From: Kineosporia mesophila
GTDB taxonomy: Bacteria > Actinomycetota > Actinomycetes > Actinomycetales > Kineosporiaceae
Reading direction: 5' to 3'
NCBI RefSeq assembly: GCF_021129235.1
Contig: NZ_JAJOMA010000001.1
Coordinates: 248,001 to 312,000, forward strand
DNA length: 64,000 bases
Part shown: positions 14,632 through 63,590 of the stretch, piece by piece
Position numbering within the stretch: position 1 is the stretch's first letter
Layout of the letters: each line of letters opens with the position of its first letter
Notes under the pieces: generated by a model
Database searches by the model: none
Seen by the model: only the letters and a program-made list of their open reading frames with translations
Told to the model about the DNA's origin: nothing
Program-made: the position numbers and the translations under genes

Positions 14632-14702
14632 TTCGTGATCAGGTCATCCCCCGGCCTTCGGCCGGGCGGTGCACCCATTCCCCGGGCCTGCCTGATTACG
14701 AA
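14632..14702. repeat. Dispersed palindrome, copy A
   Basis: The outer arms TTCGTGATCAGG (14632-14643) and CCTGATTACGAA (14691-14702) match as inverted repeats with one mismatch. An inner hairpin CCCGGCC-ttc-GGCCGGG lies at 14650-14666. The same left arm and inner hairpin occur in the copy at 34273. It sits between two convergent genes, where it could also terminate transcription. Confidence 0.7.
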
Positions 14703-14732
14703 CCGGGAAAGATGAGCGCAGCGCCGGCCGGG

Positions 14733-15527
14733 TCAGAGGGCGAACAGGGGCGGCAGGGTCAACAGCATGATCGCCGACCAGGTCACGTGGGTCGCGATCG
14801 GGGCCAGGATGCCGCCGCTGGCCCGGCGTTCCAGCCCCAGGGCGGCGCCGAGCAGGAAGGCCGCGAAGACCAGCATCGGGTTGCGGGTCGCGATCGTGGC
14901 CACGGCGTAGACGACCGTCGAGATCAGCACCGGGTGCCGCCGCCCGATCGCCGCGAACAGGGCCCCGCGGAAGAACACCTCCTCGGCCAGGCCGTTCAGC
15001 AGGGTCACGACGGCGATGAGCCAGGCCGAACCCTCCGTCTGGTGGGCCAGCACGTGCGTCACCAGATCCCGCAGCGGGGGGATCTCGCGCACGATCAGTG
15101 CCCCGACGACAAAGATCGCCCCGGCCGCGAGCCCCAGCGCGATCCCGTGCAGCAGGGGACGGCGCAGGGCTCCCCGGTACGGCGTCCAGCCCAGGTGCAG
15201 GGGGCCGGAGGCCAGGCCCCCGGCGATCCAGACCGCCGCCACGAGCAGCGTGAGCGGGTAGAACACGGTGGCGCCGGGTGCGACCGACAGGGAGATGCCG
15301 AGCAGCACGGCGCCGAGCACCAGCGTGACGGCGGTGACGACGCGTCGGCGCCGGAACCGGTCGTCGGACTCGGTGTGGTCGCGCGGCACCCGTTCGATCA
15401 GGGTCGAGCGCAGCAGGTTCTCCACCGCCCGGCCGGTCGCGGTGCGGCGCAGGGTCGACGCGGCGAAGCGCTCCAGCCGCCGGCTGGCCCGGGCCTCGAA
15501 AGCGGTCCTGGTGGGGTGTTCGGTCAT
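14733..15527 (-). CDS. CPBP family intramembrane metalloprotease
   Basis: A 264-residue membrane protein with about seven helices. The diagnostic motif LAEEVFFRG (EExxxR) and a later HVTWS histidine match the CPBP (CAAX protease and bacteriocin-processing) family. Such proteins cleave substrates within the membrane or protect against bacteriocins; the substrate here is unknown. An unusual ~60-residue basic N-terminal extension (RRLERFAASTLRRTATGR) precedes the first helix. The start codon lies 4 bp after the stop of the upstream epimerase gene, so both are in one operon. Confidence 0.85.
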   Translation of the reverse strand: MTEHPTRTAFEARASRRLERFAASTLRRTATGRAVENLLRSTLIERVPRDHTESDDRFRRRRVVTAVTLVLGAVLLGISLSVAPGATVFYPLTLLVAAVWIAGGLASGPLHLGWTPYRGALRRPLLHGIALGLAAGAIFVVGALIVREIPPLRDLVTHVLAHQTEGSAWLIAVVTLLNGLAEEVFFRGALFAAIGRRHPVLISTVVYAVATIATRNPMLVFAAFLLGAALGLERRASGGILAPIATHVTWSAIMLLTLPPLFAL

Positions 15528-15531
15528 CGGA

Positions 15532-16479
15532 TCAGCGGACGGGGTGCTCGCCGGCGTCGGGAGCCGCCGCTTGCGCGGCGCTCTCCTCCTCGGCCCGTTC
15601 CCGATCGGCCAGGGCCAGGCGCACCGACTCGTCGTAGCCGATCGTCGGGCCGGGTACGACCTCCTCGATCGCGTGGTCGTGCACGATCACCTCGTTGATC
15701 ATCGAATCCACCAGGTTGCGGGCGGTGGCGGTGTCCACGTCGGTGACCAGGGCCAGCCAGTGCGACGACAGCCCCGGGGTGAGCAGCGGGACGGTGACGT
15801 TCGGCAGCCGCTTGCCCATCACCGCGGCGGCCCGGGCCAGCATGTCCTTGTAGCGCAGCACCTCGGGGCCGCCGATCTCGAACACCCGGCCGCGCGCGGC
15901 CTCGGGCTCCAGCACGCCCTCGAGGTAGCGGATCACGTCGGGCAGGGCGATCGGCTGGGTGCGGGTGCTGACCCAGTGCGGGGTCACCATGGCCGGCAGG
16001 TGGTGGACGAGCTGGCGGGTGATCTCCCAGCTGATGCCGCCGTGGCCGATCACCACGGCCGCGCGCAGCACGGTCACCGGCACCCCGGCCAGCGGCAGCA
16101 ACTGCTCGACCTGGCGCCGGGAGCGCAGATGGGGCGAGAGATTCTCGTCGTCCACGCCCAGGCCGCCCAGATAGACGATGCGCTCCAGGCCGGCCCGGTG
16201 TGCCGCCTCGCCGAAGTTGAGGGCGGCCTCGGCGTCCTTCTCCTCGAAATCGTCCGACTCCAGGGAGTGCACGAGGTAGTACGCGGCGTCGCAGCCGGCC
16301 ATCGCGGCGGCCAGACTGTCGGTGTCCGAGACCTCGCCGAAGACCGGTTCACCCGCTCCCACATAACTTTCCGGGTGTCGAGTCATAGCCCTGACGGTGT
16401 GCCCGTCGCGCACCAGCCGCTGCGCGAGATGGGAGCCGATGAAACCGGAAGCGCCTGTGACCAGGACTGTTCTCGCCAT
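15532..16479 (-). CDS. NAD(P)-binding epimerase-like protein (atypical SDR)
   Basis: A 315-residue protein. The N-terminal TGASGFIGSH is a Rossmann-fold nucleotide-binding motif, followed by YYLVHSLES and RIVYLGGLG, as in the NAD(P)H-binding NmrA/YbjT-like atypical SDR group. The YxxxK catalytic pair is absent in its usual form, so it may be a redox sensor or a quinone-linked reductase rather than a sugar epimerase. ATG 16479 (MARTVLVTGA) is preferred over a start 48 bp upstream because it begins exactly at the fold. The gene leads an operon with the CPBP protease. Confidence 0.75.
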   Translation of the reverse strand: MARTVLVTGASGFIGSHLAQRLVRDGHTVRAMTRHPESYVGAGEPVFGEVSDTDSLAAAMAGCDAAYYLVHSLESDDFEEKDAEAALNFGEAAHRAGLERIVYLGGLGVDDENLSPHLRSRRQVEQLLPLAGVPVTVLRAAVVIGHGGISWEITRQLVHHLPAMVTPHWVSTRTQPIALPDVIRYLEGVLEPEAARGRVFEIGGPEVLRYKDMLARAAAVMGKRLPNVTVPLLTPGLSSHWLALVTDVDTATARNLVDSMINEVIVHDHAIEEVVPGPTIGYDESVRLALADRERAEEESAAQAAAPDAGEHPVR

Positions 16480-16715
16480 GGGCCCAGTGTCGCCGGGTTG
16501 GGCGAAGACGCCAGCCGGGGTACCCACCTCGTCCGCCGTTGGTCCGAAAGGTCCCGGAACTACAAAGACTGGTGAGCTTGGTGCGGGCTGTGGGGCACAA
16601 TAGTTCGCTCACCGGACATACCTCGTTCACCGCGCCGCCACGGATGGCGTTCGCGGCGAACATGAGGCGTGACCTGGCCCGATGCTGCCCCTGCCCTCTT
16701 ACGGAGCTCAGTTCA

Positions 16716-17117
16716 ATGACGACAGTGATCACCTTCGGCACCTTCGATGTCCTGCACATCGGTCACCTGCGCATTCTCGAGCGGGCGAAGGCGCACGGCG
16801 ACCGGCTCGTCGTCGGGGTGTCGTCGGACGCACTGAACATGAGCAAGAAGGGCCGCAACCCGATCTTCAGCGAGAACGAGCGCACCGCCCTGATCCAGGC
16901 GCTCGAGGTCGTGGACGAGGTCTTCATCGAGGAGTCGCTGGAGCTGAAGGCCGACTACGTGAAGAAGTTCGGCGCCGACATCCTGGTGATGGGTGACGAC
17001 TGGACCGGTCGCTTCGACTGGATCAAGGAACACTGCGAGGTCGTCTACCTGCCGCGCACGCCCTCCATCTCCACCACCGCGGTCATCGAGAAGATCTCCA
17101 AGCTGCCCTCCGCCTGA
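16716..17117 (+). CDS. tagD: Glycerol-3-phosphate cytidylyltransferase-like protein
   Basis: A 133-residue protein, the usual size for TagD. GTFDVLHIGHL carries the nucleotidyltransferase HxGH signature, and RTPSISTT matches the RTxGISTT signature. It would make CDP-glycerol (or a related CDP-alcohol) from CTP and glycerol-3-phosphate for teichoic-acid-type polymers. No polymerase or exporter lies nearby, so the end product is unclear. ATG 16716 has ACGGAG upstream. It is followed by a textbook terminator. Confidence 0.85.
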   Translation: MTTVITFGTFDVLHIGHLRILERAKAHGDRLVVGVSSDALNMSKKGRNPIFSENERTALIQALEVVDEVFIEESLELKADYVKKFGADILVMGDDWTGRFDWIKEHCEVVYLPRTPSISTTAVIEKISKLPSA

Positions 17118-17147
17118 ACGACCTGAGCGGAACCGGCGCAGCCTGAG

Positions 17148-17190
17148 TCGGGCACGGAGTGTGGGCCAGCCACTCCGTGCCCGATTTTTT
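17148..17190 (+). terminator. Rho-independent terminator
   Basis: A perfect 14-bp stem, TCGGGCACGGAGTG / CACTCCGTGCCCGA, with a 9-nt loop, followed by six T residues. It lies 30 bp after the tagD stop codon. Confidence 0.9.
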
Positions 17191-17258
17191 GCCCGCGACT
17201 CTTCTCCCGCGAACCGGACCCTCAGGACCGGGCGAGAACGACGTCCACCATGGTTGAT

Positions 17259-19313
17259 CTAGGTATTCGGAAGACGGCGGCCCACCAGGTGCCGCCAGAC
17301 CCAGCTCTCGGGCATGCGCGTGCCGGTCACCACGTACTGCGCGGTGCCCTCGCTGAGCAGGATGGTCTGGAGCTCCCGCTGGGCCACCCGGGTGCCGGCG
17401 ACCAGGAGCTCGTCGTCGAGGTGCAGTTCGGTGTCGTCGGACGGGGCGATCGTGGCCTCCCCGTCACGCAGCAGCATCAGGGGCACCACCGGCAGGCGCT
17501 CGTCGCGGTCGTCGGGATCGCGGAACAGATCACCGATGGTGAGGGCCACCCGCCCGGTCTGCCCGGCGTGGCGGCGCTGCCGCTGCCGTGGTGACACCGA
17601 CTCCGGGTCGAGGTAACCGGCCAGAGCCGGGGCCTGCCAGGCCGTCAGCTCGACGTTCCAGACGTCTTTCAGGTACTGGCCGCAGCGGTCCTTGATGCGG
17701 TGGACGAGGGCGATGGCCTCGTCCTCACCGCGCTGGGGCATCTCCTCGAGGAAGCGCCACAGCAGCGGCGTGGAGAGCCGGGCGTAGGCCTCGCGGGCCA
17801 CGATGTCGGCGGGCACGAGCAGCATGTCCAGGTGCATCGCGGCGAACAGCGAGCGGTTGGTGGGCAGGTTCTGGCGTCCGGCGACGTAGAGGTCGGGGTT
17901 GCGGCGGCGGGCGGCGGCGATCAGCGACAGGTTGGTGGTGTCGTTGTCGGTGCCGGCCACGAAGCCCACGGCCTGCTCGATGCGGGCCTCGTCGAGCACC
18001 TCCGGCTCGGACCCCTCACCGTGGATCACCTGGGGCAGTTGCCTGACCGGCAGGTCGAGCTCGGCGGCGAGGAATTCGTCCGAGGGCGGGTCGGGCTCGA
18101 TCACCACCACGTCGAGACCCTCGGCGAGCAGGTCGCCCACCACCTCCTGGCCGAACCGGCCGTACCCGCAGACCACCCACAGCCCCTTGGCCGGGGGCGA
18201 TCCGGGCGGCGGCTGCTCCGAGCCCGGACCGGCCTCCAGCCAGGAGTAGAGGCGGAACGAGGCGGGGGAGCGCAGGGCCATGCGCAGGTGGTCGCCGAAC
18301 CGGTCGAACGGGTTGATCACGGTCGGCGTGCCCCAGGCCAGCATCAGGTCTTCCACCGGCGCCGAGATGGTGCGGGCGATCACCGGCAGGTCGGGGCGCA
18401 GCAGGGCGGCGGACATGGTGATGGCCAGGTTCACGTCGTCGTCGTCCGTCATCGCCAGCACGGCCTGGCAGTGCGGGTTCTTCAGCCCGGCCAGCTTGAG
18501 GTTGAACGGGTTGGACGCGTCGGCGGTCAGGCCCGGCGGGTCGGCGAAGTACTGGTCCACCTCGAGCGACTCGATCTGCGAGGGCTCGATGTCGACGGCC
18601 ACGAAGTTGCGGCCCAGGTGGTCCCAGGCCCGGCCGAGGCGCTGCCCGGTGTGCCCGTAACCGGCGATCAGCAGGAACGGGTCGCGCATGCGCTGCACGC
18701 GGCGGGTGAAGCGGCGCATGTCCAGGGCGTTGCGGAAGCCGCGGTCCTGGAGCAGCGACAGCAACGTACCGAGCGCGTACGCCCAGCCGATGACGGTCAG
18801 GTAGATGCTGACCGTCATCCACATCCGCTGTGCGGGGGTGAACGGGAACGGGATCTCGCCGAAGCCGATGGTGCTGGCGGTGTAGCTCATCACGTAGAAG
18901 GCGTTGAACAGGCCCATCCGGTGCGGTTCGCCCTCGGGCGTCTCGCCGGGGGCCAGCGCCAGACCGAACGTGGTGATCGCGAAGATGATGATGAGCACGA
19001 TCAGCGGCGTGCGCATGCGCCGCATGATCAGGAAGATCGGGGCCGAGCCGGTATCCGCCCCGCGGGAGCTGAGGGGGCCGCCCTCCGGGCCGGGCACGTC
19101 ACCGGCCTGCCGGAACCGGGAGACCGCGGCCCAGCGGTGTTCACCGGTGATGAGCGCGTTCGTGGCGGCCGGGTCCTGCCCGGTGAGCTGGGGGTCGAGC
19201 GGCTCCCCGGGCTTGCGGATGCGGGTGGCGGGGCGGCTCTTGCCGGGCCGCCGCCCCGGATGCCGTTCGTGCCACAGCGCCTGGTCGGAGCGGGGTCTCT
19301 CGGGCGGGTGCAT
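17259..19313 (-). CDS. Potassium channel protein with two RCK (TrkA) domains
   Basis: A 684-residue protein. After a ~100-residue polar N-terminus come a membrane helix (about 103-122), a pore loop with the selectivity filter TIGFGE (148-153) and a second helix (about 165-189). Two RCK/TrkA-N domains follow: the first begins FLLIAGYGHTGQ (about 214) and the second GLWVVCGYGRFGQE (about 365). A C-terminal RCK-C-like part ends the protein. It should be a ligand-gated K+ channel in the cytoplasmic membrane. ATG 19313 overlaps the upstream stop codon (TGATG), so it is translationally coupled to the small membrane protein before it. Confidence 0.88.
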   Translation of the reverse strand: MHPPERPRSDQALWHERHPGRRPGKSRPATRIRKPGEPLDPQLTGQDPAATNALITGEHRWAAVSRFRQAGDVPGPEGGPLSSRGADTGSAPIFLIMRRMRTPLIVLIIIFAITTFGLALAPGETPEGEPHRMGLFNAFYVMSYTASTIGFGEIPFPFTPAQRMWMTVSIYLTVIGWAYALGTLLSLLQDRGFRNALDMRRFTRRVQRMRDPFLLIAGYGHTGQRLGRAWDHLGRNFVAVDIEPSQIESLEVDQYFADPPGLTADASNPFNLKLAGLKNPHCQAVLAMTDDDDVNLAITMSAALLRPDLPVIARTISAPVEDLMLAWGTPTVINPFDRFGDHLRMALRSPASFRLYSWLEAGPGSEQPPPGSPPAKGLWVVCGYGRFGQEVVGDLLAEGLDVVVIEPDPPSDEFLAAELDLPVRQLPQVIHGEGSEPEVLDEARIEQAVGFVAGTDNDTTNLSLIAAARRRNPDLYVAGRQNLPTNRSLFAAMHLDMLLVPADIVAREAYARLSTPLLWRFLEEMPQRGEDEAIALVHRIKDRCGQYLKDVWNVELTAWQAPALAGYLDPESVSPRQRQRRHAGQTGRVALTIGDLFRDPDDRDERLPVVPLMLLRDGEATIAPSDDTELHLDDELLVAGTRVAQRELQTILLSEGTAQYVVTGTRMPESWVWRHLVGRRLPNT

Positions 19314-19699
19314 CAGCGGCGGTGGAAGGACACGGTCTCGATCACCAGGAGCACCACCGAGACCAGGTTGGCCAGCAGGGCTCCGCCGGACAGCGACACG
19401 ATGCTCGACATCGCGTGCGCGTCCAGGCCGGAGCTGGACACGTAGTCGGCGTAGACCCAGACGATCGTGGCCGCGATCAGCTGCAGGTCGGCGACCAGGC
19501 TGGTGGCCAGGTGCACGGCACCGATCTGGGTGCGGTCGCCGAACTTGAGCACGGTGGTGATCAGGCTGACCACCACGGCCGCGTAGAGCTCGTACTCGCT
19601 GTGCAGGTTGGCGTCGGCGATGTCACCGATGAAGAAACCCAGGTTCATCGTGGCTGCCAGTAGTACGAAGAAGCCGAAGATCACTTTCTCGAGGTTCAT
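19313..19699 (-). CDS. Small four-helix membrane protein
   Basis: A 128-residue protein with four predicted membrane segments: VIFGFFVLLAATMNLGFFIG, LYAAVVVSLITTVL, VADLQLIAATIVWVYA and LLANLVSVVLLVIETV. Its size and layout resemble small integral membrane proteins of unknown role in actinobacteria (DUF6394-like, from memory). It is locked between two genes: its ATG overlaps the MFS stop (ATGA) and its stop overlaps the K+ channel start (TGATG). GGAGGGG stands before its ATG. The constant coupling suggests it works with the K+ channel, perhaps as an accessory subunit. Confidence 0.7.
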   Translation of the reverse strand: MNLEKVIFGFFVLLAATMNLGFFIGDIADANLHSEYELYAAVVVSLITTVLKFGDRTQIGAVHLATSLVADLQLIAATIVWVYADYVSSSGLDAHAMSSIVSLSGGALLANLVSVVLLVIETVSFHRR

Positions 19700-20970
19700 C
19701 GACCCCTCCGGTCGGTGGTGCGGGTGCCGGACTTCCAGGGGGTCCGGCGCCCCGACAGTGTGTCCGATGTGCGGCTTCCGATGGCCGCCGACCCACCGGC
19801 GGCCATCAGCACGATCATTCCCGCGATGACGAGAATCGGCACGTTCCAGGTGCCGGTCGCCGAGTGCACGGCCCCGACCATCATCGGCCCGAGCGCGCCC
19901 AGGACATAACCGATGCCCTGGACCGCGGCCGACATCCGGCGCGCGTCGTCGGTGCTGACGGCCCGGGCCACCACCACGCTGAAGATCACTGTGAAGCCGC
20001 CGCCCTGGGCGAAACCGCCCAGGCACGACCACAGCACCCACAGCGAGGGGGCGAAGGCCAGGCCCAGCGGCAGACTGATCCAGCAGGCGCAGACCAGCAG
20101 CAGAGCGGCCCGGCCGGACACCCCCCGGTTGATCAGGAAGGGCACCCCGAACGCCGCGACCAGGGCCAGGGCCTGGAAGAACGCGGAGCTGCCACCGGCC
20201 TGGGCCGCGGTGAGCCCCTGTTCGTCGGAGAGCAGGGTGGGTAGCCAGGCGGTGATGCCGTAGTAGCTGAACGACTGCCCGGCGAACGCCAGCACCATGC
20301 CCACGACCAGCTTGCGGCGCCACAGCGGGGTGGTGTCGGTCTCCTGCGCAGGAGGGTTGCGGACCAGGCGTTCCTGGGTGTGGGGGACGGCGAAGGCCCA
20401 GGCCACCGCCGCGATCAGCACGATCAGCACCCAGACGGCGAGGGCGCCGCGCCAGGTCAGCCGGTCGGTGAGGGGTGCTCCGAGGGAGGTGGCGGACAGC
20501 GCGCCGATGTTGATCGCGGCCGTGTAGTAGCCGGTGACCTGGGTGGTGCGGCCGGGGAAGTCCCGCCCGATGATCGCCGGGATGACGATGTTGCCGATCG
20601 TGATGCCGAACCCGAGCACCAGCGTCCCGGTCAGGGCCGCGGTCAGGCCGCCCGCCGAGCGCAGCAGGATGCCGGCGGCCATGATCGCCAGGGCGATGTA
20701 CACGGACGCGTTGATGCCTGATCGCCGGGTGAGCACCAGTACCAGCGGGGTGGCCAGGCCGAAACAGATCACCGGGATGCTGGTGAGCAGACCCGCCGTG
20801 CCGCTGCCGATGTCCAGGTCGCGCTGGATCTCGCCGATCGCCGGGGCCACCGCCACGAACGGGCCGCGCATCGTGACGGCGACGACGAACAGGCCGGTCA
20901 GCACCGCGAGGGGCATCGCCGCGCGCTGTACGGGGGTACGGATCGCCGGGGTCGGCTCGGTCGTGGTCAC
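19696..20970 (-). CDS. MFS transporter, CynX/NimT type
   Basis: A 424-residue, 12-helix major facilitator. The N-terminal VAVTMRGPFVAVAPAIGEIQ and later features (TIGNIVIPAIIGRDFP, QSFSYYGITAWLPTLL) match the CynX/NimT group, which moves cyanate-like or nitroimidazole compounds; the substrate here is unknown. It is first in a three-gene overlapping operon with a small membrane protein and a K+ channel. The GTG start lies 8 nt after TAGACT with no ribosome binding site, so translation may be leaderless. A near-perfect AT-rich inverted repeat lies at 20988-21008. Confidence 0.85.
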   Translation of the reverse strand: MTTTEPTPAIRTPVQRAAMPLAVLTGLFVVAVTMRGPFVAVAPAIGEIQRDLDIGSGTAGLLTSIPVICFGLATPLVLVLTRRSGINASVYIALAIMAAGILLRSAGGLTAALTGTLVLGFGITIGNIVIPAIIGRDFPGRTTQVTGYYTAAINIGALSATSLGAPLTDRLTWRGALAVWVLIVLIAAVAWAFAVPHTQERLVRNPPAQETDTTPLWRRKLVVGMVLAFAGQSFSYYGITAWLPTLLSDEQGLTAAQAGGSSAFFQALALVAAFGVPFLINRGVSGRAALLLVCACWISLPLGLAFAPSLWVLWSCLGGFAQGGGFTVIFSVVVARAVSTDDARRMSAAVQGIGYVLGALGPMMVGAVHSATGTWNVPILVIAGMIVLMAAGGSAAIGSRTSDTLSGRRTPWKSGTRTTDRRGR

Positions 20971-21946: not shown

Positions 21947-22029
21947 CGTGATCATGCAAAACCTCCCCGGACTTCTAGAACTCTCCGGCCTGGAGTTCTA
22001 GAACGCCGGGGAGATTCTGCATGATCACG
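21947..22029. repeat. Dispersed palindrome, copy B (complete)
   Basis: An 83-nt nested palindrome. The outer arms CGTGATCATGCA... (21947-21970) and ...TGCATGATCACG (22006-22029) pair over 24 nt with few mismatches. The inner arms TTCTAGAACTC (21973-21983) and GAGTTCTAGAA (21993-22003) are perfect. It sits between convergent PAP2 and LysR genes, and the LysR stop codon lies within the right end. A 23-nt piece of it recurs exactly at 49937-49959 inside cobK. Confidence 0.85.
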
Positions 22030-26573: not shown

Positions 26574-26617
26574 GCAGAAGTCGATGCTCCTCGGGGAGCT
26601 TCTGCGTGATCACGAAC
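26574..26617. repeat. Dispersed palindrome, degenerate copy C
   Basis: CGGGGAG.TTCTGC.TGATCACGAAC (26593-26617) matches the right arm of the palindrome family. The left arm is replaced by GCAGAAG...GCTCC, which still pairs with GGAGC and CTTCTGC to form a hairpin. It ends 12 bp before the start codon of the next gene, so it could affect its translation. Confidence 0.5.
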
Positions 26618-32291: not shown

Positions 32292-32292
32292 C

Positions 32293-34272: not shown

Positions 34273-34378
34273 CCGTGATCAGGCCGATCCCCCGGCCTTC
34301 GGCCGGGAAGTGCCCCCGCTCTCCGGCGTTCCAGAACCGAGAGTTCTAGAACGCCGGGGAGGTTTTGCATGATCACGG
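34273..34378. repeat. Dispersed palindrome, copy D (composite)
   Basis: The left end carries CCGTGATCAGG and the hairpin CCCGGCC-ttc-GGCCGGG (34291-34307), as in copy A. The right end carries the TTCTAGAA core (GGCGTTCcAGAAC / GTTCTAGAACGCC) and TTTTGCATGATCACGG, as in copy E. The 27 nt at 34354-34380 are identical to 41612-41638. It lies between the MDMPI gene 5' end and the fcl 3' end. Confidence 0.8.
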
Positions 34379-34393
34379 AAAGGTTCTTGGCGA

Positions 34394-41552: not shown

Positions 41553-41635
41553 CGTGATCATGCAAAACCTCCCCAGTGTTCTAGAACTCTCGAGCCTACA
41601 GTTCTAGAACTCCGGGGAGGTTTTGCATGATCACG
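41553..41635. repeat. Dispersed palindrome, copy E (best preserved)
   Basis: The outer arms of 22 nt (41553-41574 and 41614-41635; core GTGATCATGCAAAACC) pair perfectly. The inner GTTCTAGAAC occurs at 41578-41587 and 41601-41610. It lies between the lysR 3' end and the cbiM 5' end, and supplies the TGA stop of the LysR gene. Confidence 0.88.
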
Positions 41636-42515
41636 GAAGGTTGGGGGGTTTTAGGGTTGCCTGGGCGTACTTGCGGAAGGCCGTGACCAGGCGGCCGTTG
41701 TCCCCGGCGCGGGTGGCGAGGACCACGTGGCTGGGTGGGGCGTCGCTCAGCGGGATGCCGACGAGGTCGGGGCGGCCGTAGCTGCCGACGGCGGGCACGA
41801 TCGCGATCGCCCGGCCGGAGGCGACGATCTCGAACTTGTCCTCGACGCTGTTGATCAGCGGACCGTCGGGGGCGCGGCGCCCGTCGGGGCGGGGGTCGAT
41901 GAGCCAGTAGGCACTCCACTGCGGGTCGCCGCCGTCCCGGAGCCGGGGCATCGGCTCGTCGGCGATGTCGGCCAGGGTCAGCGACTCGCGCCCGGCCAGC
42001 CGGTGGCCGGTGCTCAACAGCACGGCGCGGGGCTGGTCGTACAGCACCGTCACGTGCAGGCCCTCGGTGATCAGGGGCAGCCGGGTGACCACCACGTCCG
42101 CCTGGCGTTCCAGCAAGGCCTCCCGCCCGGCGTTCCAGGCCACGAAGCGGGTCTCGATCCCGGCGTCCGGATGGCGTCGCTGCATCTGCGCGACGACCGG
42201 CGTGACGATCAGGCCGGAGATGTAACCGACCACCAGGCGGCTCGGTTCGGCGGCGGCCCGGGCCTCGCCGCCGGCCTGGGAGGCCAGTCGCAGCAGCGAC
42301 CTGGCCCGGGGCAGGAAGGCGGTGCCGGCCGTGGTGAGCTGGGTGCCCTGCGGGGTGCGGTCGAGCAGCCGGGCGCCGACGGAGTCTTCGAGCCGCCGGA
42401 TCTGGCGGCTCAGTGACGGCTGGCCCACCCGCAGCTCTTGTGCCGCCCGCCCGAAGTGCCGATGCTCGGCCACCGTCACGAAGTACCGCACGAGGCGCAG
42501 GTCGAGATCGGTCAT
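41631..42515 (-). CDS. LysR family transcriptional regulator
   Basis: A 294-residue LysR protein: HTH at about 4-62 (LRLVRYFVTVAEHRHFGRAA, then VGQPSLSRQIRRLEDSVG) and effector domain with VGYISGLIVTPVVAQMQRRH and INSVEDKFEIVASGRAIAIV. ATG 42515 starts directly at the HTH. It is divergent from an epimerase gene with 153 bp between, which it probably regulates. The C-terminal residues (PPNLP) and stop run into palindrome copy E, as in the LysR gene at 22025. Confidence 0.88.
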   Translation of the reverse strand: MTDLDLRLVRYFVTVAEHRHFGRAAQELRVGQPSLSRQIRRLEDSVGARLLDRTPQGTQLTTAGTAFLPRARSLLRLASQAGGEARAAAEPSRLVVGYISGLIVTPVVAQMQRRHPDAGIETRFVAWNAGREALLERQADVVVTRLPLITEGLHVTVLYDQPRAVLLSTGHRLAGRESLTLADIADEPMPRLRDGGDPQWSAYWLIDPRPDGRRAPDGPLINSVEDKFEIVASGRAIAIVPAVGSYGRPDLVGIPLSDAPPSHVVLATRAGDNGRLVTAFRKYAQATLKPPNLP

Positions 42516-49463: not shown

Positions 49464-50282
49464 TCAGGCGCCAAGCCGTTCGTCGAGCCAGTCGACGGCC
49501 TCGGTCACCTGCTGCACGACCGGAATGCCGCCGGGAAGGGGCGGGCGCTCGACCATGACCACCTCGATGCCCCGCTCGCGCGCCGCGGTCAGCTTGGCCG
49601 CCGTCATCGGCCCCCCGCTGTTCTTGGTGACGAGAACATCCATGTGCCGCAGAAGTTCCCGCTCGGCGTCGAGGGTGAAGGGCCCCCGGTCGAGGATGAT
49701 GTCGCAGCGTTCCGGAAGGGGCCCGTCGGGCGCTTCGACGGCCCGCAGCCAGAACCGCTGGGGGAGTGCGGCGAAGGCGGCGGTCTCCTGGCGGCCGGTG
49801 GTCAGGAGCACCCGGGCACCGGCTGGGTAGTGGGAAAGGTGCGCCGCGGCAGACGACATATCCGCAACCCGGACCCACCGATCACCGGCCCGGGCCTGCC
49901 ACCCCGGCCGCCGCAGCACCAGAAACCCCACCCCGCCGTGATCATGCAGAATCTCCCCGAGGGAGGGCCGGTCGGGGGGTGGGGTGGTCGCCTGGGTTGC
50001 GATGACGGCATTGGCCGTGATGCGCGCCGCGAACGGGTGCGTGGCGTCGACGACCGCGAAAATACGCTCGGACCGGAGGTATTCGGCCAGACCCGCAGCC
50101 CCGCCGAACCCACCGACGCGCACCTCGCCCACCGGGAGCCGCGGCGAGGAGACCCGGCCGGCCAAGGACGAGATCGCCGGGATGCCACGAGCAACGAGGG
50201 CGGCGGCCAGCTCCCGCGCCTCACCGGTCCCACCGAGAATCAGAACACGGCGGCTCCAGTGGGCCGCACCCGACCTCGTCAT
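49464..50282 (-). CDS. cobK: Cobalt-precorrin-6A/precorrin-6A reductase
   Basis: A 272-residue protein. RVLILGGTGEARELAAALVA, VVDATHPFAARITANAV, FLVLRRPGWQARAGDRWVRV and VLVTKNSGGPMTAAKL are CobK/CbiJ signatures. It reduces precorrin-6A to dihydro-precorrin-6B in cobalamin synthesis. Between the HPFAA motif and RRPGW it carries ~20 extra residues (TTPPPDRPSLGEILHDHGGV) compared with the family as I know it. That stretch is encoded by a copy of the dispersed palindrome. ATG 50282 has GGAGAGAG 8 nt upstream; a GTG 9 bases further up is the alternative. Confidence 0.88.
   Translation of the reverse strand: MTRSGAAHWSRRVLILGGTGEARELAAALVARGIPAISSLAGRVSSPRLPVGEVRVGGFGGAAGLAEYLRSERIFAVVDATHPFAARITANAVIATQATTPPPDRPSLGEILHDHGGVGFLVLRRPGWQARAGDRWVRVADMSSAAAHLSHYPAGARVLLTTGRQETAAFAALPQRFWLRAVEAPDGPLPERCDIILDRGPFTLDAERELLRHMDVLVTKNSGGPMTAAKLTAARERGIEVVMVERPPLPGGIPVVQQVTEAVDWLDERLGA
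49937..49959. repeat. Dispersed palindrome, half copy F inside cobK
   Basis: The 23 nt beginning CGTGATCATGCAGAATC are identical to the reverse complement of 22007-22029 (copy B). They lie in frame within cobK and encode GEILHDH on the minus strand. Confidence 0.8.
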
Positions 50283-57718: not shown

Positions 57719-58717
57719 TTACACCGCTGCCTGACGCCTGAGAGCTACCAGAGCCAGCCACCCGATGGGCACCCGCAGCCAGAAGGTGAACACGCGGAAC
57801 AGCACGGCGGCGGACACGGCGACTTCGTAATCATCCACGCCGGCGACCTTCAGCCCGCCGGCGAGGGCGGCCTCGGCCGCGCCGATCCCACCCGGCACCG
57901 GCACCGACCCCGCGATCGCCGACCCCGCGATCACCACGACGGCCAGCAGCACCAGGGGAACACCCGCGTCGAAGGCGTGCAGCGCGGCGCCGAGCACCCC
58001 GATGAACCCCAGCGTCACGGTCAGATGCCCGAGCGTGGCCAGGGCCAGGCGCTTGCGGTTCGTGACGATGTCCCGCAGCTGAGGGCCGGCGTCGCGGAAC
58101 GGCTTCACCACGTACCGCACGGCCAGGGCCCGGCCCCACGGCCAGAACCGCAGCAGCACCACCGCGATCAGGAAGATCCCGGCCGCGATCAGCACGGTCA
58201 GCCAGGGAACGTGCGGGGCGTCGCTGAACGACCGCCCCGAGGCCCCCAGCAGCACGACCACCAGTACCGCGGTGACCACGATCGACATGGTCTGGACCAG
58301 CCCCACCACCGTCACCGCGACGGCCAGCGGAATGTCCCGCCGGGTCAGGTAGCGCACGTTCAGGGCCAGGCCCCCGGCGCTGGCCGGGGTGATCAGGTTC
58401 ACGAAGGATGTAGCCAGCTGGACCAGCGTCATCTGCCCGAACGGGACGCGCCCGGGGGCGAACGCGAGAAAACTGAGGGCGCTGCCGACGACCGGCAGCA
58501 CCGCGGCCAGGGCGGCCAGCAGCAGCCAGAGGGGGTCGGCGCCGCGCAGGCGCTGCCAGAGATCGGCGAAATCGACCTGCTGCGAGAGCACGTATACGGC
58601 CAGGACCGAGGCCACGACGAGCAGGACCCGCCCGACCAGAGCTCGCCAGCGAGGCGCCGGCGACTGCTCCGGCGCAGGTAGAGGCTGCGCGGCGGGTGTT
58701 TCGGGGGCGGACGACAC
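57719..58717 (-). CDS. Flippase-like membrane protein (LPG synthase TM / UPF0104 family)
   Basis: A ~332-residue protein with eight or nine helices. LWLLLAALAAVLPVVGSALS, FVNLITPASAGGLALNVRYL and SVPVPGGIGAAEAALAGGLK are hallmarks of the lysylphosphatidylglycerol synthase TM-region (AglD/UPF0104) family. Without the catalytic LPG domain, relatives are thought to translocate lipids or lipid-linked sugars. GTG 58717 has GAAGG 7 nt upstream; starts at 58723 and 58744 are possible. Confidence 0.8.
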   Translation of the reverse strand: MSSAPETPAAQPLPAPEQSPAPRWRALVGRVLLVVASVLAVYVLSQQVDFADLWQRLRGADPLWLLLAALAAVLPVVGSALSFLAFAPGRVPFGQMTLVQLATSFVNLITPASAGGLALNVRYLTRRDIPLAVAVTVVGLVQTMSIVVTAVLVVVLLGASGRSFSDAPHVPWLTVLIAAGIFLIAVVLLRFWPWGRALAVRYVVKPFRDAGPQLRDIVTNRKRLALATLGHLTVTLGFIGVLGAALHAFDAGVPLVLLAVVVIAGSAIAGSVPVPGGIGAAEAALAGGLKVAGVDDYEVAVSAAVLFRVFTFWLRVPIGWLALVALRRQAAV

Positions 58718-58889
58718 GCTCACACCTTCGCACAGCGTGCTCACGGCCAGGAAAATAGGGGCAGAAGTTCAGGGTGGAACCAGGGTGAGCGCGCGCTCGG
58801 CTGGTGGGGGCAGATCGTGCCGCGGAACCGGATCAGGACCGTGAGTGTGTGTGCAGATGGTGCGGTGGGAGCGCACTGTCTGGCCACGA

Positions 58890-59192
58890 TCATGTTTCGG
58901 CGAGGAGCGCGGCGAGTTCTTCCATCTGGCTGTAGAAGGACTCGCCGGCCTCCGGGAGCACGGTTCTCGCCAGGGCGGGGAGTTTTCGGGCGGCGATCAC
59001 GAAATCCTGTTGCTGTGCCTCGGAGAGCTGTTTCACGTCGAGAAGACCGACGTTGTTCTCGGAGAGCTCCTGGAGCCAGGTTGCCAAATCCGGGTCCTGG
59101 ACCTGTTCGGCGAGGGTGTCGAGGGTCCAGAAGAAGATTCCGGACCGAGCGTCCCAGCCACGGCCGTCGGGCAGAAAAATTGTTCCAGCCAC
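58890..59192 (-). CDS. Putative immunity-type protein
   Basis: A 100-residue acidic, helical protein (LPDGRGWDARSGIFFWTLDT, then LQELSENNVGLLDVKQLSEA). I recognise no named family, but it is small and acidic and starts on the last base of the toxin-like gene (TAGTG overlap), which is the usual layout of an immunity partner. The GTG at 59192 is fixed by that overlap. It would neutralise the toxin; this is inferred from context only. Confidence 0.5.
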   Translation of the reverse strand: MAGTIFLPDGRGWDARSGIFFWTLDTLAEQVQDPDLATWLQELSENNVGLLDVKQLSEAQQQDFVIAARKLPALARTVLPEAGESFYSQMEELAALLAET

Positions 59193-59551
59193 TACTCACC
59201 CACCATGAAGACTCGAGGGCCCAGCGGTGCGATGAACCTCTGAACCCGATCTATTTGGTCCGCCCGGAACTGCGACACATCGATCGGCACCAGCTCGGCC
59301 TTACCCAGGTGACGCCGGATCTGCCCGAAGAAATGGTCCCACTGCCCGTCCAGGTACTGCCCGGGGAACCCGCCGACGGCGTCGTACGTACGACCGTCCA
59401 TGTCGACCCAGTCCCAGCTGTCGTCCTCTCCCGCCCGGGTGAGTCGCACGTTCCGCTCTTCCATGACACGGATCGCCGTGCGGTACTCACCCTTACGGAA
59501 CTTCTTGATCTGCGGATCGAGGCCGAGGCTGTGCTCCCACGTTCCCGGCAC
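59192..59551 (-). CDS. Toxin-like protein (polymorphic toxin C-terminal domain-like)
   Basis: At least 119 residues. The C-terminal part (GRTYDAVGGFPGQYLDGQWD, then HLGKAELVPIDVSQFRADQI and VQRFIAPLGPRVFMVGE) resembles, from memory, the CdiA-type nuclease C-terminal module with a YDAVG.FP..Y.D.QW core; there are few residues before it. The GTG at 59551 is the first canonical start. The frame stays open upstream as a Gly/Pro-rich stretch (GAPQGGGAPGPG) across a 62-bp gap into the end of the helical-protein gene, so a rare CTG start overlapping that stop is possible. It lacks any secretion or pre-toxin domain. Confidence 0.45.
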   Translation of the reverse strand: MPGTWEHSLGLDPQIKKFRKGEYRTAIRVMEERNVRLTRAGEDDSWDWVDMDGRTYDAVGGFPGQYLDGQWDHFFGQIRRHLGKAELVPIDVSQFRADQIDRVQRFIAPLGPRVFMVGE

Positions 59552-59613
59552 CGGCGTCCGGGGCCACGGATATCCCGGGCCGGGTGCTCCCCCTCCCTGG
59601 GGAGCACCCGCGC

Positions 59614-60225
59614 TCAGTTTCCCGGTGCGCGTCCTTCGTCCTGGTCGTCGTCCGGGTCCCGGCCGTCATGGTCGCGGTCCTGGTCGGGCTTCTGGTCGCG
59701 CTGGGTCTCGTCGCCCTCGCCCTGGCCCATGCTCTGGGCCTCCTCGTGCTCGGCCTCGATGTCGGAGCGGGACTGGGCCAGGCGCTCGAAGAGACCCTCC
59801 ACGTTCTCGCGCAGGAGCTGGAGGCGGTTGGCGAGGGCCTCGTGCTCGGCCTGCTCGGCGCCCTGCATCGCCTCGTCGACGAGGTTGACGGTGCTCTCCA
59901 GGGCCTCCTGGGTACCCTCCAGCGCGGTCAGGCTGAGGGTGAGGTGCTGACTGACCTCGGAGCGGCTCATCTGCTCGGTGATCTGGTCGAGCGTGGAGGC
60001 GGCGCTCTCGAAGGAGTCGTCGAGGCCGGACAGTTCCGCGGAGATCTTCTCGAGAGCCTCGCTGGTGATGCTGATGGACTGGCCGATGCCGTCCCAGCCG
60101 TGCTCGATGGAGATCTCGATCTGCTCGCGGGCGTACTCCAGGGCCTCGTCGGCGCGGGTGCCGGCCTCGGTGGCCGCCTCGTTCACCGCCTTGACCTCTG
60201 AGCTGATTTCTTCGGTGCGCGACAT
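59614..60225 (-). CDS. Helical coiled-coil protein, WXG-like in character
   Basis: A 203-residue, almost wholly alpha-helical acidic protein (SSEVKAVNEAATEAGTRADE, then ALEKISAELSGLDDSFESAA), ending in a disordered Asp/Gln/Arg tail (DQDRDHDGRDPDDDQDEGR). No cysteine, no membrane segment. Its heptad-rich helices and a central HGWDGIG resemble the helical N-terminal modules that carry actinobacterial polymorphic toxins to type VII secretion. It lies directly before the toxin-like gene, so it may be its separate carrier or adaptor. AAGGGAGA precedes ATG 60225. Confidence 0.55.
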   Translation of the reverse strand: MSRTEEISSEVKAVNEAATEAGTRADEALEYAREQIEISIEHGWDGIGQSISITSEALEKISAELSGLDDSFESAASTLDQITEQMSRSEVSQHLTLSLTALEGTQEALESTVNLVDEAMQGAEQAEHEALANRLQLLRENVEGLFERLAQSRSDIEAEHEEAQSMGQGEGDETQRDQKPDQDRDHDGRDPDDDQDEGRAPGN

Positions 60226-60256
60226 TGGTCTCCCTTGGGGCGAGTTGGGAGGAAGT

Positions 60257-61006
60257 TTAGGACGCCGTCGGCGGCAGTTGGGTGGGCGCGCCGAGGCGGT
60301 ACGCCACCACGACACCACTGATCGCCTGAGCGTGGATCAGGGCGCAGAGCACGACGAGCTGGAAGCGGGCGGCGTCCATCGGATCGGCGCCACCGAGCAG
60401 GGCGCCGATGAACGCGCCGGGCAGCGTCACCAGGCCGGTGGTGCGGGTCTGGTCGATGACGGGCATCATCGCCTCGGCCACGCTGCGGCGGCAGATCCGG
60501 GCTGTGGCCTGGCGCGGCGTGGCGCCGAGGGCGAGCAGACCCTCGATCTCGTCGCGTTCGGACTCCAGGCCGGCCGCCAGCCGACGGCCGGTCAGGGTCG
60601 CCGCGAGCATGGTGCCGCCGATGACGATCCCGCCCAGGGCCACGAGATAGCGGGCCGAGAGGTCGAGCATGCCGAGGGCGAAGATCACCACCAGCGTGCC
60701 GATGGCGGCGCTCGAGCAGGCCAGCGCCACGGCGCTCAGCGCCCCCGGCAGCGCCTTCAGGCGCCGGGCCGCGGTGTGGATCGCCACGGTCAGCATCATC
60801 GTCAGGGCCAGCGCCACGAACGGTGGGGCGTTGAAGACGCCACGCAACGCCAGCCCCACCAGGGCGAGCTGGGCGGCACCCCGGACGACGGCCCAGGCCG
60901 GGCCCCAGCCCAGCGGCACCCGGGCCACCCGCAGCACCAGCCAGGTCAGGCCGATGAGCGTGAGAACACCGAGGCCGAGCCGGACGTCGGGGTGCAACAG
61001 GGTCAC
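60257..61006 (-). CDS. FetB-like ABC permease (UPF0014 family)
   Basis: A 249-residue membrane protein with seven predicted helices. RVPLGWGPAWAVVRGAAQLA, VALGGIVIGGTMLAATLTGR, GLLALGATPRQATARICRRS and TTGLVTLPGAFIGALLGGAD are UPF0014/FetB signatures. FetB with the ATPase FetA exports iron in E. coli; no FetA-like ATPase is adjacent here, so the partner must lie elsewhere. GTG 61006 overlaps the thioesterase stop by 4 nt, and the upstream extension of the frame is a shadow. Confidence 0.82.
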   Translation of the reverse strand: MTLLHPDVRLGLGVLTLIGLTWLVLRVARVPLGWGPAWAVVRGAAQLALVGLALRGVFNAPPFVALALTMMLTVAIHTAARRLKALPGALSAVALACSSAAIGTLVVIFALGMLDLSARYLVALGGIVIGGTMLAATLTGRRLAAGLESERDEIEGLLALGATPRQATARICRRSVAEAMMPVIDQTRTTGLVTLPGAFIGALLGGADPMDAARFQLVVLCALIHAQAISGVVVAYRLGAPTQLPPTAS

Positions 61007-61872
61007 TGCGGCACTCGGAACATGCCTTCCTGGCCGACCGTCGCGACCAGCGTGCCGTCGGCGGAGTAGATCCGGGCCAGGCCGAGACCTCGCGCCCCCG
61101 AGGCCGAAGGGCTCTCCTCGACGAACAGGAACCAGTCGTCGAACGTGACCGGCCGGTGGAACCACATGGCGTGGTCCAGGCTGGCGGTCTTCATGCCCGG
61201 CGTGGTCCAGGCCAGGCCGTGGGCGCGCAGGGTGGGCTCGAGCACGGTGTAGTCACTGACGTAGGCCAGCACCACGGCGTGCAGCAGCGGGCCGGGCGGC
61301 AGCGGGGCGATGGGCCGGATCCACACGGCCTGCTCGGCGACCTTCTCCGGGCCCGGGGCGAGGAACAGCGGACTCTGCACGTGCCGCAGCTCGAACGGCT
61401 GCGACCTCAGCAGCGGGCCCAGGTCGTCCGGACGGTGCCCGGCCTCGGCCAGGCGCTCGCTGAACGTGGGCAGCTCGTGCGGACGCGGTACCTCGGGCAT
61501 GGGGGCCTGGTGGTCCAGGCCCTGCGCGGGGGTCTGGAACGACGCGATCATCGACAGGATCGGCTGGCCGTGCTGCACGGCCTGCACCCGGCGGGCGCTG
61601 AACGACCGGCCGTCCCGCAGCCGCTCCACGGCCAGCTCGATCGGCACCGAGGGGTCGCCCGGGCGCAGGAAATAGCCGTGGAAGGAATGCGGTGGGCGGT
61701 CGCCCCCGACCGTCTTGGTGGCCGCGGCGAGAGCCTGCGCTAGGACCTGCCCGCCGAAGATCCGGCCGTGCGGTGCGTGGTAGTTCTGCCCCACGTACTG
61801 GTCCTCGCCGGCCTCCTCGAGTGCGAGCACCCGCATCAGTTCGTCGATCGGGACGTCTGAACCGGTGGTCAC
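61003..61872 (-). CDS. tesB: Acyl-CoA thioesterase II
   Basis: A 289-residue double hot-dog protein. GRIFGGQVLAQALAAATKTV, PHSFHGYFLRPGDPSVPIEL, SMIASFQ and the second-half ASLDHAMWFHRPVTFDDW, then GRGLGLARIYSADGTLVATV-like end match TesB, with the catalytic Asp in SLDHAMWF. It hydrolyses medium- and long-chain acyl-CoA. Its start overlaps the tetR stop by 4 nt and its stop overlaps the fetB-like start, so all three are one operon. Confidence 0.9.
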   Translation of the reverse strand: MTTGSDVPIDELMRVLALEEAGEDQYVGQNYHAPHGRIFGGQVLAQALAAATKTVGGDRPPHSFHGYFLRPGDPSVPIELAVERLRDGRSFSARRVQAVQHGQPILSMIASFQTPAQGLDHQAPMPEVPRPHELPTFSERLAEAGHRPDDLGPLLRSQPFELRHVQSPLFLAPGPEKVAEQAVWIRPIAPLPPGPLLHAVVLAYVSDYTVLEPTLRAHGLAWTTPGMKTASLDHAMWFHRPVTFDDWFLFVEESPSASGARGLGLARIYSADGTLVATVGQEGMFRVPQ

Positions 61873-62552
61873 GTACGTTCTCCTTCGGGCGGGGCCGGCG
61901 GCCGGGCACTCACCATCCGGGTGGCCAGGTCCGCGTACAGGTCCCCGATCTGCGCGGCGGTGCGGCTGCCCCGGGGGTCGTACCAGCGGGCCACGTCGAC
62001 GCTCAGGGAGAGCAGGGCCCGCGCCACCGCCCGGGTGTCGGGTACGTCCATCTCACCACTCGCGTTCCCGGCGCTGAGCTGGGCCTCCACCACACCCTCG
62101 ATCTTGCGGCGCACGTCGAGCACCCGGCTCTGGTCGGTGTCGGCCAGCGCGGCGATCTCGTGGTGCACGACCCGGGCCACCCGGTAGCGCTCGGCGTGCC
62201 AGGCGGTGAAGTCGCGGATCACCGCCCGCAGCCGGTCCACGCTCCCGGTCTGCGTGGCCGCGGACCGTTCGACCAGGTCCAGTGCGGCCTCGTGCCCGAC
62301 CACGCTGATCTCGGCCAGCAGCGCCTGCTTCGAGGGGAAGTGCACGTAGAGAGCGGCCGGGCTCAGTCCGACGCGGGTCGCGATGTCCCGGGTGGTGGTG
62401 GCGTGGAAGCCACGATCGGCGAAGGCCTCGATCGCGGCCTCGATCAGCCGCCGCGACGAATCACCCGACCTGGTGGGGGCCGCTTCGCCGCCCGGGTCGT
62501 CGTTCGGCTCGTCGCCGTCGTCCGTCCAGCTCATCGCCGACCGGGTCGCCAT
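61869..62552 (-). CDS. TetR family regulator, probably of fatty-acid genes
   Basis: A 227-residue TetR protein. After a ~32-residue acidic leader comes the HTH (about 33-80: LIEAAIEAFADRGFHATTTR, then VGLSPAALYVHFPSKQALLA). The C-terminal domain contains HAERYRVARVVHHEIAALAD and KIEGVVEAQLSAGNASGEMD. Its layout is like KstR2/acyl-CoA-responsive regulators. It heads an operon with thioesterase II and is divergent from an SDR gene. A perfect GAACG-gg-CGTTC palindrome lies 16 bp before its start. Confidence 0.85.
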   Translation of the reverse strand: MATRSAMSWTDDGDEPNDDPGGEAAPTRSGDSSRRLIEAAIEAFADRGFHATTTRDIATRVGLSPAALYVHFPSKQALLAEISVVGHEAALDLVERSAATQTGSVDRLRAVIRDFTAWHAERYRVARVVHHEIAALADTDQSRVLDVRRKIEGVVEAQLSAGNASGEMDVPDTRAVARALLSLSVDVARWYDPRGSRTAAQIGDLYADLATRMVSARPPAPPEGERT

Positions 62553-62568
62553 GGCGGGAGCATGTCAC

Positions 62569-62580
62569 GAACGGGCGTTC
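62569..62580. promoter_or_regulatory. Candidate TetR operator between tetR and SDR genes
   Basis: GAACG-gg-CGTTC is a perfect 12-bp palindrome, 16 bp upstream of the tetR start and 135 bp before the SDR start, placed to control both divergent units. Confidence 0.5.
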
Positions 62581-62714
62581 CGTCAAGAACAGAGCCCGGA
62601 TCGTTGCAGGCCGAACGGCCCGTGATGTGACGGTGATCATGTGCCAGGCTGGCGGGGGAATCGTGCAACTCGGGCGCGGTGCGACGGAGCACCGGCGGGA
62701 CGAGGAGGGGCCAG

Positions 62715-63524
62715 ATGCGTCTCGACGAGGAGACCGGCATTCAGGTCGAGCAGGGACCGTCGGCTGATCGCCGGTTCGAGGGGCGGGTCGCCGTGGTCAC
62801 CGGTGCCAGCCGGGGGATCGGGCTGGCGATCGCGCGGCGACTGATCTCCGAGGGTGCCCGGGTGTGCGTCACCGCCCGCAAACCCGGTCCGCTGGAGGAC
62901 GCGGTGGAGCAGCTGGGTGGCCCGGGGGTCGCGGTCGGGGTGGCCGGCCGGGCCGACGACGCCGAGCACCGTGCCCATGCGGTGCGGGCCACCATCGACG
63001 CCTTCGGGCGGATCGACGTGCTGGTCAACAACACCGGCATCAATCCCGTCTACGGGCCGATGACGGAGACGGACACCGGGGCCGCGGCCAAGGTGTTCGA
63101 CGTCAACGTGATCGCGGCGCTCTCCTGGACCGACGAGGTGCGCAAGCTCGGGCTGGGGCATCACGGCGGGGCCGCGATCGTGAACGTGGCGTCCATCGCC
63201 GGGCTGCGGCCGTCGCCGGGCATCGGGGTGTACGGCGCCAGCAAGGCCGCGCTGATCCACGTCACCTCCCAGCTGGCGCTCGAGCTGGCCCCGCGGATCC
63301 GGGTCAACGCGGTGGCCCCGGCCGTGGTGAAGACCCGCTTCGCCACGGCGCTCTACGAGGGCCGGGAGCGGGAGCTGGCCGCCGGGTACCCGCTCGGCCG
63401 GCTCGGCGTCCCGGACGACGTGGCCGCGGCGGTGGCCTTCCTCGCCAGTGACGACGCCTCGTGGATCACCGGGCAGACCCTCACCCTGGACGGTGGGGTC
63501 GGGCTCGGCGGTGCGATCGGCTAG
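62715..63524 (+). CDS. SDR family oxidoreductase (FabG-like)
   Basis: A 269-residue classical SDR. VAVVTGASRGIGLAIARRLI binds the cofactor, VLVNNTGIN is the NNAG-type motif, the Ser is in IVNVASIAG, and YGASKAALIHVTSQLA gives Tyr and Lys. RVNAVAPAVVKTRFATAL and SWITGQTLTLDGGVGLGG close the fold. Likely role: 3-oxoacyl or hydroxyacyl reduction, fitting the TesB/TetR neighbours. ATG 62715 follows GAGGAGG (6-nt spacing). Confidence 0.88.
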   Translation: MRLDEETGIQVEQGPSADRRFEGRVAVVTGASRGIGLAIARRLISEGARVCVTARKPGPLEDAVEQLGGPGVAVGVAGRADDAEHRAHAVRATIDAFGRIDVLVNNTGINPVYGPMTETDTGAAAKVFDVNVIAALSWTDEVRKLGLGHHGGAAIVNVASIAGLRPSPGIGVYGASKAALIHVTSQLALELAPRIRVNAVAPAVVKTRFATALYEGRERELAAGYPLGRLGVPDDVAAAVAFLASDDASWITGQTLTLDGGVGLGGAIG

Positions 63525-63541
63525 CGCCGGCCACATCCCCT

Positions 63542-63590
63542 GTTCGTGATCGGGCAAACTTCCCCGGGGAAACTTCGCATGATCACGAAC
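63542..63590. repeat. Dispersed palindrome, short copy G
   Basis: A 49-nt palindrome: outer GTTCGTGATC / GATCACGAAC perfect, centre AACTTCCCC / GGGGAAACTT. It lacks the TTCTAGAA inner part. It lies 18 bp after the SDR stop and before the next gene. Confidence 0.75.

Follow-up and report, generated by a model that had tools for sequence, protein, structure and literature searches.

Dispersed palindromes of Kineosporia mesophila as probable partners of a chromosomal AbiEi-Vsr-like nuclease gene

A stretch of 64,000 nucleotides (nt) from the Kineosporia mesophila genome, positions 248001-312000 of contig C1 and hereafter the window, contains a scatter of related nested palindromes, which raises the question of what enzyme, if any, disperses them. 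An initial annotation likened them to repetitive extragenic palindromic (REP) sequences and bacterial interspersed mosaic elements (BIMEs), or to tiny miniature inverted-repeat transposable elements (MITEs), and proposed a search for a REP-associated tyrosine (RAYT) or Y1-type transposase. This interpretation is partly supported. The 12-mer that begins each palindrome arm, CGTGATCATGCA, referred to here as the tag, occurs in exact form 341 times in the whole genome (G000; 7,783,199 nt, or 7.78 Mb, in 61 contigs) and its reversed control 0 times, far above the limit of about ten genome-wide copies that had been set for a genuine family. Such a transposase was not found, PF01797 having 0 matches in G000 with five of 14 control genomes positive. 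The palindromes are probably multi-copy, non-autonomous partners of a nuclease gene present once on the chromosome, the two making up a REP/RAYT-like system with another kind of enzyme.

The palindromes and the gene between their ends

One pair of tags, at C1:144962 and C1:146075, encloses a single gene about 102 kb before the window; the initial annotation could not have seen it because it lies outside that stretch. The gene occupies the axis of an 83-nt-type element, with a complete arm to either side, and is flanked by a 40-nt inverted match. Among the first 100 of the 341 tag places, the gene-carrying copy, with the same complete ends, encodes this nuclease, of which G000 has one close copy. 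In three other genomes, a homologue lies within equivalent tag clusters.

The product, approximately 300 amino acids long, appears to start with an AbiEi-type winged-helix part and to continue into a Vsr-like PD-(D/E)XK part, an assignment of fold matches to parts that is our own. Among four proteins of the family that were scanned, PF18741 (the restriction endonuclease, or REase, family MTES_1575) matches the C-terminal part of all four at E-values of 1.8e-6 to 1.7e-3, all under the curated cut-off, and AbiEi_4 or AbiEi_1 of Pfam matches two above it. NCBIfam returned no match for the four proteins, and a sequence search of solved structures returned PvuRts1I alone (E 0.27). A structure model of the Quadrisphaera homologue L116 (mean predicted local distance difference test 94, predicted template modelling score 0.90) has the AbiEi antitoxin 6y8q as its best fold match (E 3.5e-5, listed without an aligned range), followed by much weaker matches to the I-Bth0305I catalytic domain (prob 0.82, E 0.24), PvuRts1I and Vsr. 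Across 27 sequences, Asp225, Glu236, Asp238 and His243 do not vary. The modelled PD-(D/E)XK/Vsr-like fold and these conserved, predicted catalytic residues together place the protein in the Vsr-like superfamily.

The anatomy of the palindromes was read from 605,556 nt of G000, a sample picked mainly for the tags listed in it, and each tag was allowed one mismatch at most. It holds 43 inverted pairs and 37 single tags. Nearly half of the pairs (21) are 83 nt long, with ten of 44 nt, four of 60-62 nt, three of 112-113 nt, and one each of 43, 50, 72, 73 and 89 nt. The minimal form is CGTGATCATGCA plus ten further arm bases, followed by the inverse, and larger forms add one or two TTCTAGAA units and a CCCAGCCTTCGGCCGGG module towards the symmetry axis. 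Nucleotides 1-12, the tag, are near-invariant across copies. At nucleotides 13-18, changes in one arm compensated in the other number 5, 2, 12, 10, 9 and 2, against shuffle means of 1.0, 0.1, 2.4, 3.4, 1.5 and 0.4.

According to genes called with a home-made caller, 40 of the 43 pairs are intergenic, as are 957 of 6300 random positions, and the median distance from a pair to a stop codon is 23 nt. The 39 classified intergenic copies occupy 22 tandem, 15 convergent and two divergent gaps. These counts, the length classes and the gene context bear out the modular, intergenic and stop-codon-near character, REP/BIME- or MITE-like, that the initial annotation had described. Placement of this sort is also terminator-like, and AbiEi antitoxins autoregulate through inverted repeats, as stated in part of PMC7319586. 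The flanking repeats might thus be operators of an AbiEi-like autoregulator, and the dispersed palindromes its regulon or bidirectional terminators held by selection. We regard this as unlikely: operators would not be expected to avoid divergent gaps, and the repeats stand on both sides of the gene, ahead of its start and also beyond its stop. The copy numbers and empty sites given below speak against it as well.

Gene-specific repeats and copy number

Bracketing by inverted repeats recurs in the gene family, and the repeats are gene-specific. Each of 12 close genes in seven genomes is bracketed by inverted copies of a repeat, with one to several copies per side. For instance, G019 has four such genes with four motifs, two of them alike in the first 11 bases, and G027 has three genes with three motifs. 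The arrangement recurs with other motifs in many of 45 loci from a named genome collection, which include Quadrisphaera, Kineococcus, Aeromicrobium, Mumia, Kribbella, Motilibacter, metagenome-assembled genomes (MAGs) of Nocardioidaceae and others, and also in the majority of a further 19 genes retrieved from the order, four of which repeat earlier records.

To put numbers to this, we counted a gene as flanked when the 320 nt upstream and the 250 nt downstream share an exact inverted match of 14 nt or more, and defined a close homologue as one with a profile score of at least 220 bits and enough flank. There are 52 distinct close homologues, L211, L074 and L145 being omitted for short flanks and L224 for its score. 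Forty-two of the 52 are flanked (45 at 13 nt), versus 8 of 696 control frames in the same windows. Among rows scoring below 220 bits, 14 of 42 reach 13 nt, some of these rows being fragments of one gene.

Cognate motifs for 42 genes were read by hand and aligned at YGA, so that this trinucleotide is common to all of them by construction. Loci with no clear two-sided motif, fragments and repeated records were left out of the list, including L107/L217, L108, L111, L113, L115, L118, L119, L123, L124/L218, L127, L128, L212, L226 and L227. Protein distances and repeat distances in this set correlate with a Mantel r of 0.56, a value reached in 0 of 9999 permutations.

Copy number follows the gene. 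In a scan of 396 genomes of the order, with five candidates scored per genome and E <= 1e-60 defining a close nuclease, 26 genomes are carriers, and exact CGTGATCATGCA copies range from 0 to 371 per genome, a spread that argues against conserved operators or terminators. Ten genomes have at least 15 exact copies, and eight of these carry a close nuclease, versus 18 of the other 386 (Fisher p 4.6e-9). In one of the eight, G088, the motif carried by the gene is GGTGATCTTGCAC, which is related to the counted 12-mer. Motifs of other genes behave alike: CGTGATCATGG occurs 221, 159 and 128 times in the three genomes where it flanks the gene and 5-37 times in 12 others, and CTCGCGAGAGAC 58 and 37 times in two genomes whose genes carry it and 0-2 times in 13 others. 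A 2.6-kb piece containing the G000 gene finds 151 matches in G000, 142 in G005, and 1-3 in each of four genus mates that lack a close gene. The gene reads as two split frames in L123/L124 (Streptomyces sp. NP160) and L128 (MAG M60), where the cognate motif is numerous nonetheless.

A homing-type or sequence-marking nuclease, which would cut unoccupied or foreign cognate sites and leave the repeats as resistant or marked self sites rather than mobile elements, would fit a gene that splits an 83-nt-type palindrome at its axis, and the I-Bth0305I catalytic domain is among the better fold matches. Homing should, however, have filled the available sites, whereas G000 has one close gene despite its 341 tags and 17 of the 26 carriers have a single one; nor does homing offer a mechanism by which palindromes multiply. 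We consider it quite improbable.

Turnover, gene slots and the copies in the window

G000 and G005 are syntenic over about 210 kb, mostly at 90-94% identity. Nine of the 11 G000 tag clusters in this stretch are matched in G005, two of them being the ends of the gene; the cluster at 154645 has only a remnant there, and one could not be mapped. Among 14 G005 clusters, three (1559782-1559865, 1600592-1600653 and 1432417) have no counterpart in G000. The two genomes also differ by the in-place inversion of two elements, one of them the nuclease gene itself. In G003, a genus mate without a close gene, mapping was tried for 19 G000 sites and succeeded for 17, in some cases across long and otherwise diverged intervals. 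Fifteen of the 17, the gene slot included, have no tag at two or fewer mismatches, one holds a diverged element of the 44-nt class, and one a remnant. The gene slot measures 16 nt in G003 versus 1179 nt, and 340 kb of G003 contain no exact tag. So many vacant sites are again hard to reconcile with operators or terminators under selection, and the presence/absence differences between species fit the movement that the initial annotation had proposed to look for. The target duplications that it had also proposed to look for were not evident by eye at the sites compared, where flanks have diverged. At the G003 site matching G000:C1:24776, where G000 and G005 hold a 112-nt element, there is an unrelated long palindrome beginning GAACCAAGGCGGCTTGAGGACGTTC.

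The gene itself keeps fixed positions. In nine genomes (three Aeromicrobium, Mumia, Kribbella, Motilibacter and three Nocardioidaceae MAGs) it lies between a DUF349-like gene, named by reading, and relA/spoT, identified by Pfam in one of the nine. A second slot, between valS and clpX, is used in G013, G019, G088 and Quadrisphaera, with the class I tRNA synthetase recognized by Pfam in G013 and clpX by reading. Slots stay constant but most of the repeats change; in the first slot, two of the nine genomes share CTCGCGAGAGAC. Outside the G000 group the nuclease gene is therefore a long-term chromosomal resident.

Such constancy bears on two further explanations. Terminal inverted repeats, few length classes and a modular interior are what an ordinary MITE family of a DDE transposase would show, with the nuclease a passenger caught between two copies. 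Two further gene-sized tag gaps among those listed (G016 C7 and G034 C18, loci L048 and L049) indeed enclose other open frames. A passenger, though, would not have a different repeat around each of many homologues across several families, nor keep one slot while the repeats change, and no target duplication was evident at the presence/absence sites compared; we hold this reading to be very improbable. Fixed slots across genera would also suit a host function, in which the repeats and the nuclease together make up a chromosome-maintenance module passed on vertically, for example for palindrome processing at replication forks, and the spread of repeats is a side effect. Consistent with it, no relative was confirmed in the viral collection, and the plasmid collection PLSDB gave one weak match, on a record of 11.85 Mb. 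TGTGGA (often CCTGTGGATGA), a motif that we take to be DnaA-box-like, is present in the 200 nt upstream of 29 of 38 nuclease genes, versus 40 of 618 control frames. Presence is patchy within one genus, however, with an empty slot in G003, and the motifs seem to turn over too quickly for a conserved role in the host, which leaves a host function with little probability. In the examples L033, L045 and L088, TGTGGA stands 39-111 nt before the first conserved codon. A phage or plasmid origin of the nuclease was rejected on the same database results.

A REP-like mode, which we judge most likely, accounts better than any of these alternatives for gene-specific repeats that stand on both sides of a gene in a fixed slot.

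Within the window, CGTGATCATGCA has 11 matches at one or fewer mismatches (mean 0.26 and maximum 2 in 100 shuffles), in agreement with the dispersed family first proposed (Table 1). The identities reported for it are exact: 34354-34380 equals 41612-41638 over 27 nt, and 22007-22029 is the reverse complement of 49937-49959 over 23 nt. The outer arms of copy E are perfect, with 22 of 22 bases paired, and copy B pairs 20 of 22; both fold as strong nested hairpins. Copy C, listed initially among the related elements, is one-sided, 5 of its 22 outer bases being paired, and the fragment placed at 4015-4027 does belong to the family, as a remnant of half a copy and with slightly wider limits. Two more matches with one mismatch, at 1614-1625 and 3749-3760, are probably coincidental. 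The latter reads GGTGATCATGCA and has a similar stretch with like neighbouring bases in G003 at 3835732, probably a conserved coding coincidence. Rfam at gathering thresholds found no match in the window, and a tRNA search of it found none.

Table 1. Palindromic elements and partial copies in the window, with z-scores of single-strand DNA folds
Feature	Coordinates	Strand	Fold z-score	Description
Copy B	21947..22029	.	-11.7	complete 83-nt element; 22-nt arms (CGTGATCATGCA plus 10) and two inner TTCTAGAA units; exact tags at both ends
Copy E	41553..41635	.	-12.0	complete 83-nt element; perfect 22-nt arms
Copy D	34273..34378	.	-7.0	composite; extra module CCCCCGGCCTTCGGCCGGG and inner TTCTAGAA unit; left tag variant CGTGATCAGG
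Copy A	14632..14702	.	-3.5	CCCGGCC-ttc-GGCCGGG module; diverged tags TTCGTGATCAGG / CCTGATTACGAA
Short element, 44-nt class	63542..63590	.	-2.5 (63541-63587)	left tag diverged (CGTGATCGGGCA)
Copy C	26574..26617	-		one-sided; single tag CGTGATCACGCA at 26603-26614 beside an unrelated small inner palindrome
Half copy, single arm	49937..49959	+		23-nt identity to the right arm of copy B, other strand
Half-copy remnant	4013..4027	-		CGTGATCATGCC with flanking GTT

A candidate mechanism and its known counterparts

A nuclease that spreads its own palindromes would most likely recognise its cognate repeat, with the AbiEi-like part reading the variable portion of the arm and the nuclease part acting at or near the shared 5' tag (YGA; CGTGATCA in G000). 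Two inverted tags would constitute the unit acted on. Binding and a nick or cut at both tags of a hairpin, a cruciform or a duplex pair could free or duplicate the short palindrome, or flip the stretch enclosed. Occasional copying or re-insertion at intergenic sites would then make the nuclease the cause of the spread, with copies occasionally lost. In its wider form, which we favour with some reserve, the proposal is that vertically inherited AbiEi-Vsr nucleases of Actinomycetota each recognise and spread their own palindrome by hairpin or cruciform cutting, and constitute a second, independently evolved REP-like class.

Several observations weigh against this account. Ten of the 52 close homologues fail to show a 14-nt inverted match: L057, L107 and L222 have similar but imperfect repeats, L212 has an array on one side only, and L108 and L111 yielded no clear flanking repeat. 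The Mantel correlation is built on motifs picked and aligned by hand, and common ancestry by itself would account for some of it. Dispersal was assessed for three motifs. Uncompensated changes at nucleotides 13-18 are also common (6, 3, 9, 8, 4 and 5 of 43 pairs), and the in-place inversions could stem from ordinary recombination between inverted arms. Two genomes are rich in tags without a close gene: G007, with 139 exact 12-mers, has no close nuclease in its assembly, its best homologue scoring 90 bits with other flanks, and G082 has 27 copies, the array read there being a tandem repeat of another kind. Finally, the 16-nt core of the palindrome beside the distant G007 homologue L166 is found only there. 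Since this one palindrome tested beside a distant homologue is not dispersed, the claim is kept to the close family.

These exceptional genomes have repeats of their own. The G007 tags that were read (e.g. L180-L208) belong mostly to near-identical 42-nt palindromes, CGTGATCATGCACTTTCGA..TCGAAAGTGCATGATCACG. L166, at about 5823-6668 of its piece (G007:C34:25822-26667), has a different palindrome family on each side, of the GAGTGGGCAGATTCGCAC type. In G082, L228 (G082:C1:401500-404500) consists of tandem 54-nt direct repeats starting CTCGTGATCATGCAGAAGCGCTG, either an unrelated array or another element type.

The two parts of the protein each have known relatives. The AbiEi antitoxin of the type IV toxin-antitoxin system AbiE shares the best fold match and the Pfam assignments noted above; the present protein differs in continuing into a nuclease-like part, and its neighbours in the slots examined are housekeeping genes rather than a DUF1814 toxin (RelA/SpoT and a class I tRNA synthetase by Pfam at two loci; DUF349-like, ClpX and B12 genes by reading only). 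The C-terminal part resembles the REase_MTES_1575/Vsr nucleases and I-Bth0305I, through the sub-threshold PF18741 match and the weaker fold matches to I-Bth0305I, PvuRts1I and Vsr. MTES_1575 is described as a novel Vsr-REase in PMC3710099, the available part of which draws no link to dispersed repeats. Among the literature matches listed, none describes a pairing of such a nuclease with palindromes, in a coverage that leaves out bioRxiv entirely and most subscription journals. If the present account holds, proteins whose only annotation is AbiEi, MTES_1575 or DUF559-type would acquire a testable partner, and dozens of natural nuclease-repeat pairs would become available for specificity work.

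The closest parallel is with REP sequences, their hairpin-forming doublets (REPINs) and RAYTs. Both systems have high-copy, short, intergenic palindromes (more than about 100, here 341 tags with 40 of 43 pairs intergenic), an inverted pair as the unit, a short conserved tag and compensated changes; the likeness to REPINs, 43 pairs in few length classes beside 37 single tags, is one of arrangement only. Both also have a chromosomal gene bracketed by inverted repeats and several gene-specific repeat classes per genome, as parts of PMC2817692 and PMC3116915 report for RAYTs. GTAG- and CGTC-tagged REPs (Di Nocera 2013, PMC3733652, as far as its available part goes) are likewise tagged palindromes, and that source describes CGTC REPs as lacking a dedicated transposase; the term "actinobacteri-" is absent from its text. 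The tag here is YGA... (CGTGATCA in this family, CGTGATCATGCA in G000), not GTAG or CGTC. The hosts are Actinomycetota, whereas the RAYTs treated in the accessible part of PMC2817692 are found only in gammaproteobacteria. The enzyme, above all, combines Vsr-like PD-(D/E)XK and AbiEi-type parts in place of the HUH/Y1 fold, and the bracketed gene, in 42 of 52 close homologues, is that Vsr-like nuclease. Since the enzyme belongs to another class and G000 yielded no Y1 gene, we do not file the system as a RAYT system. RAYT-REP is the reference example of a solitary chromosomal nuclease that lives alongside hundreds of its own palindromes. If the present account is correct, palindrome populations of hundreds need no HUH/Y1 chemistry, and a convergent system would separate the general features of such partnerships (a single gene, a tag, an inverted pair, a vertical slot and fast motif turnover) from those specific to HUH enzymes.

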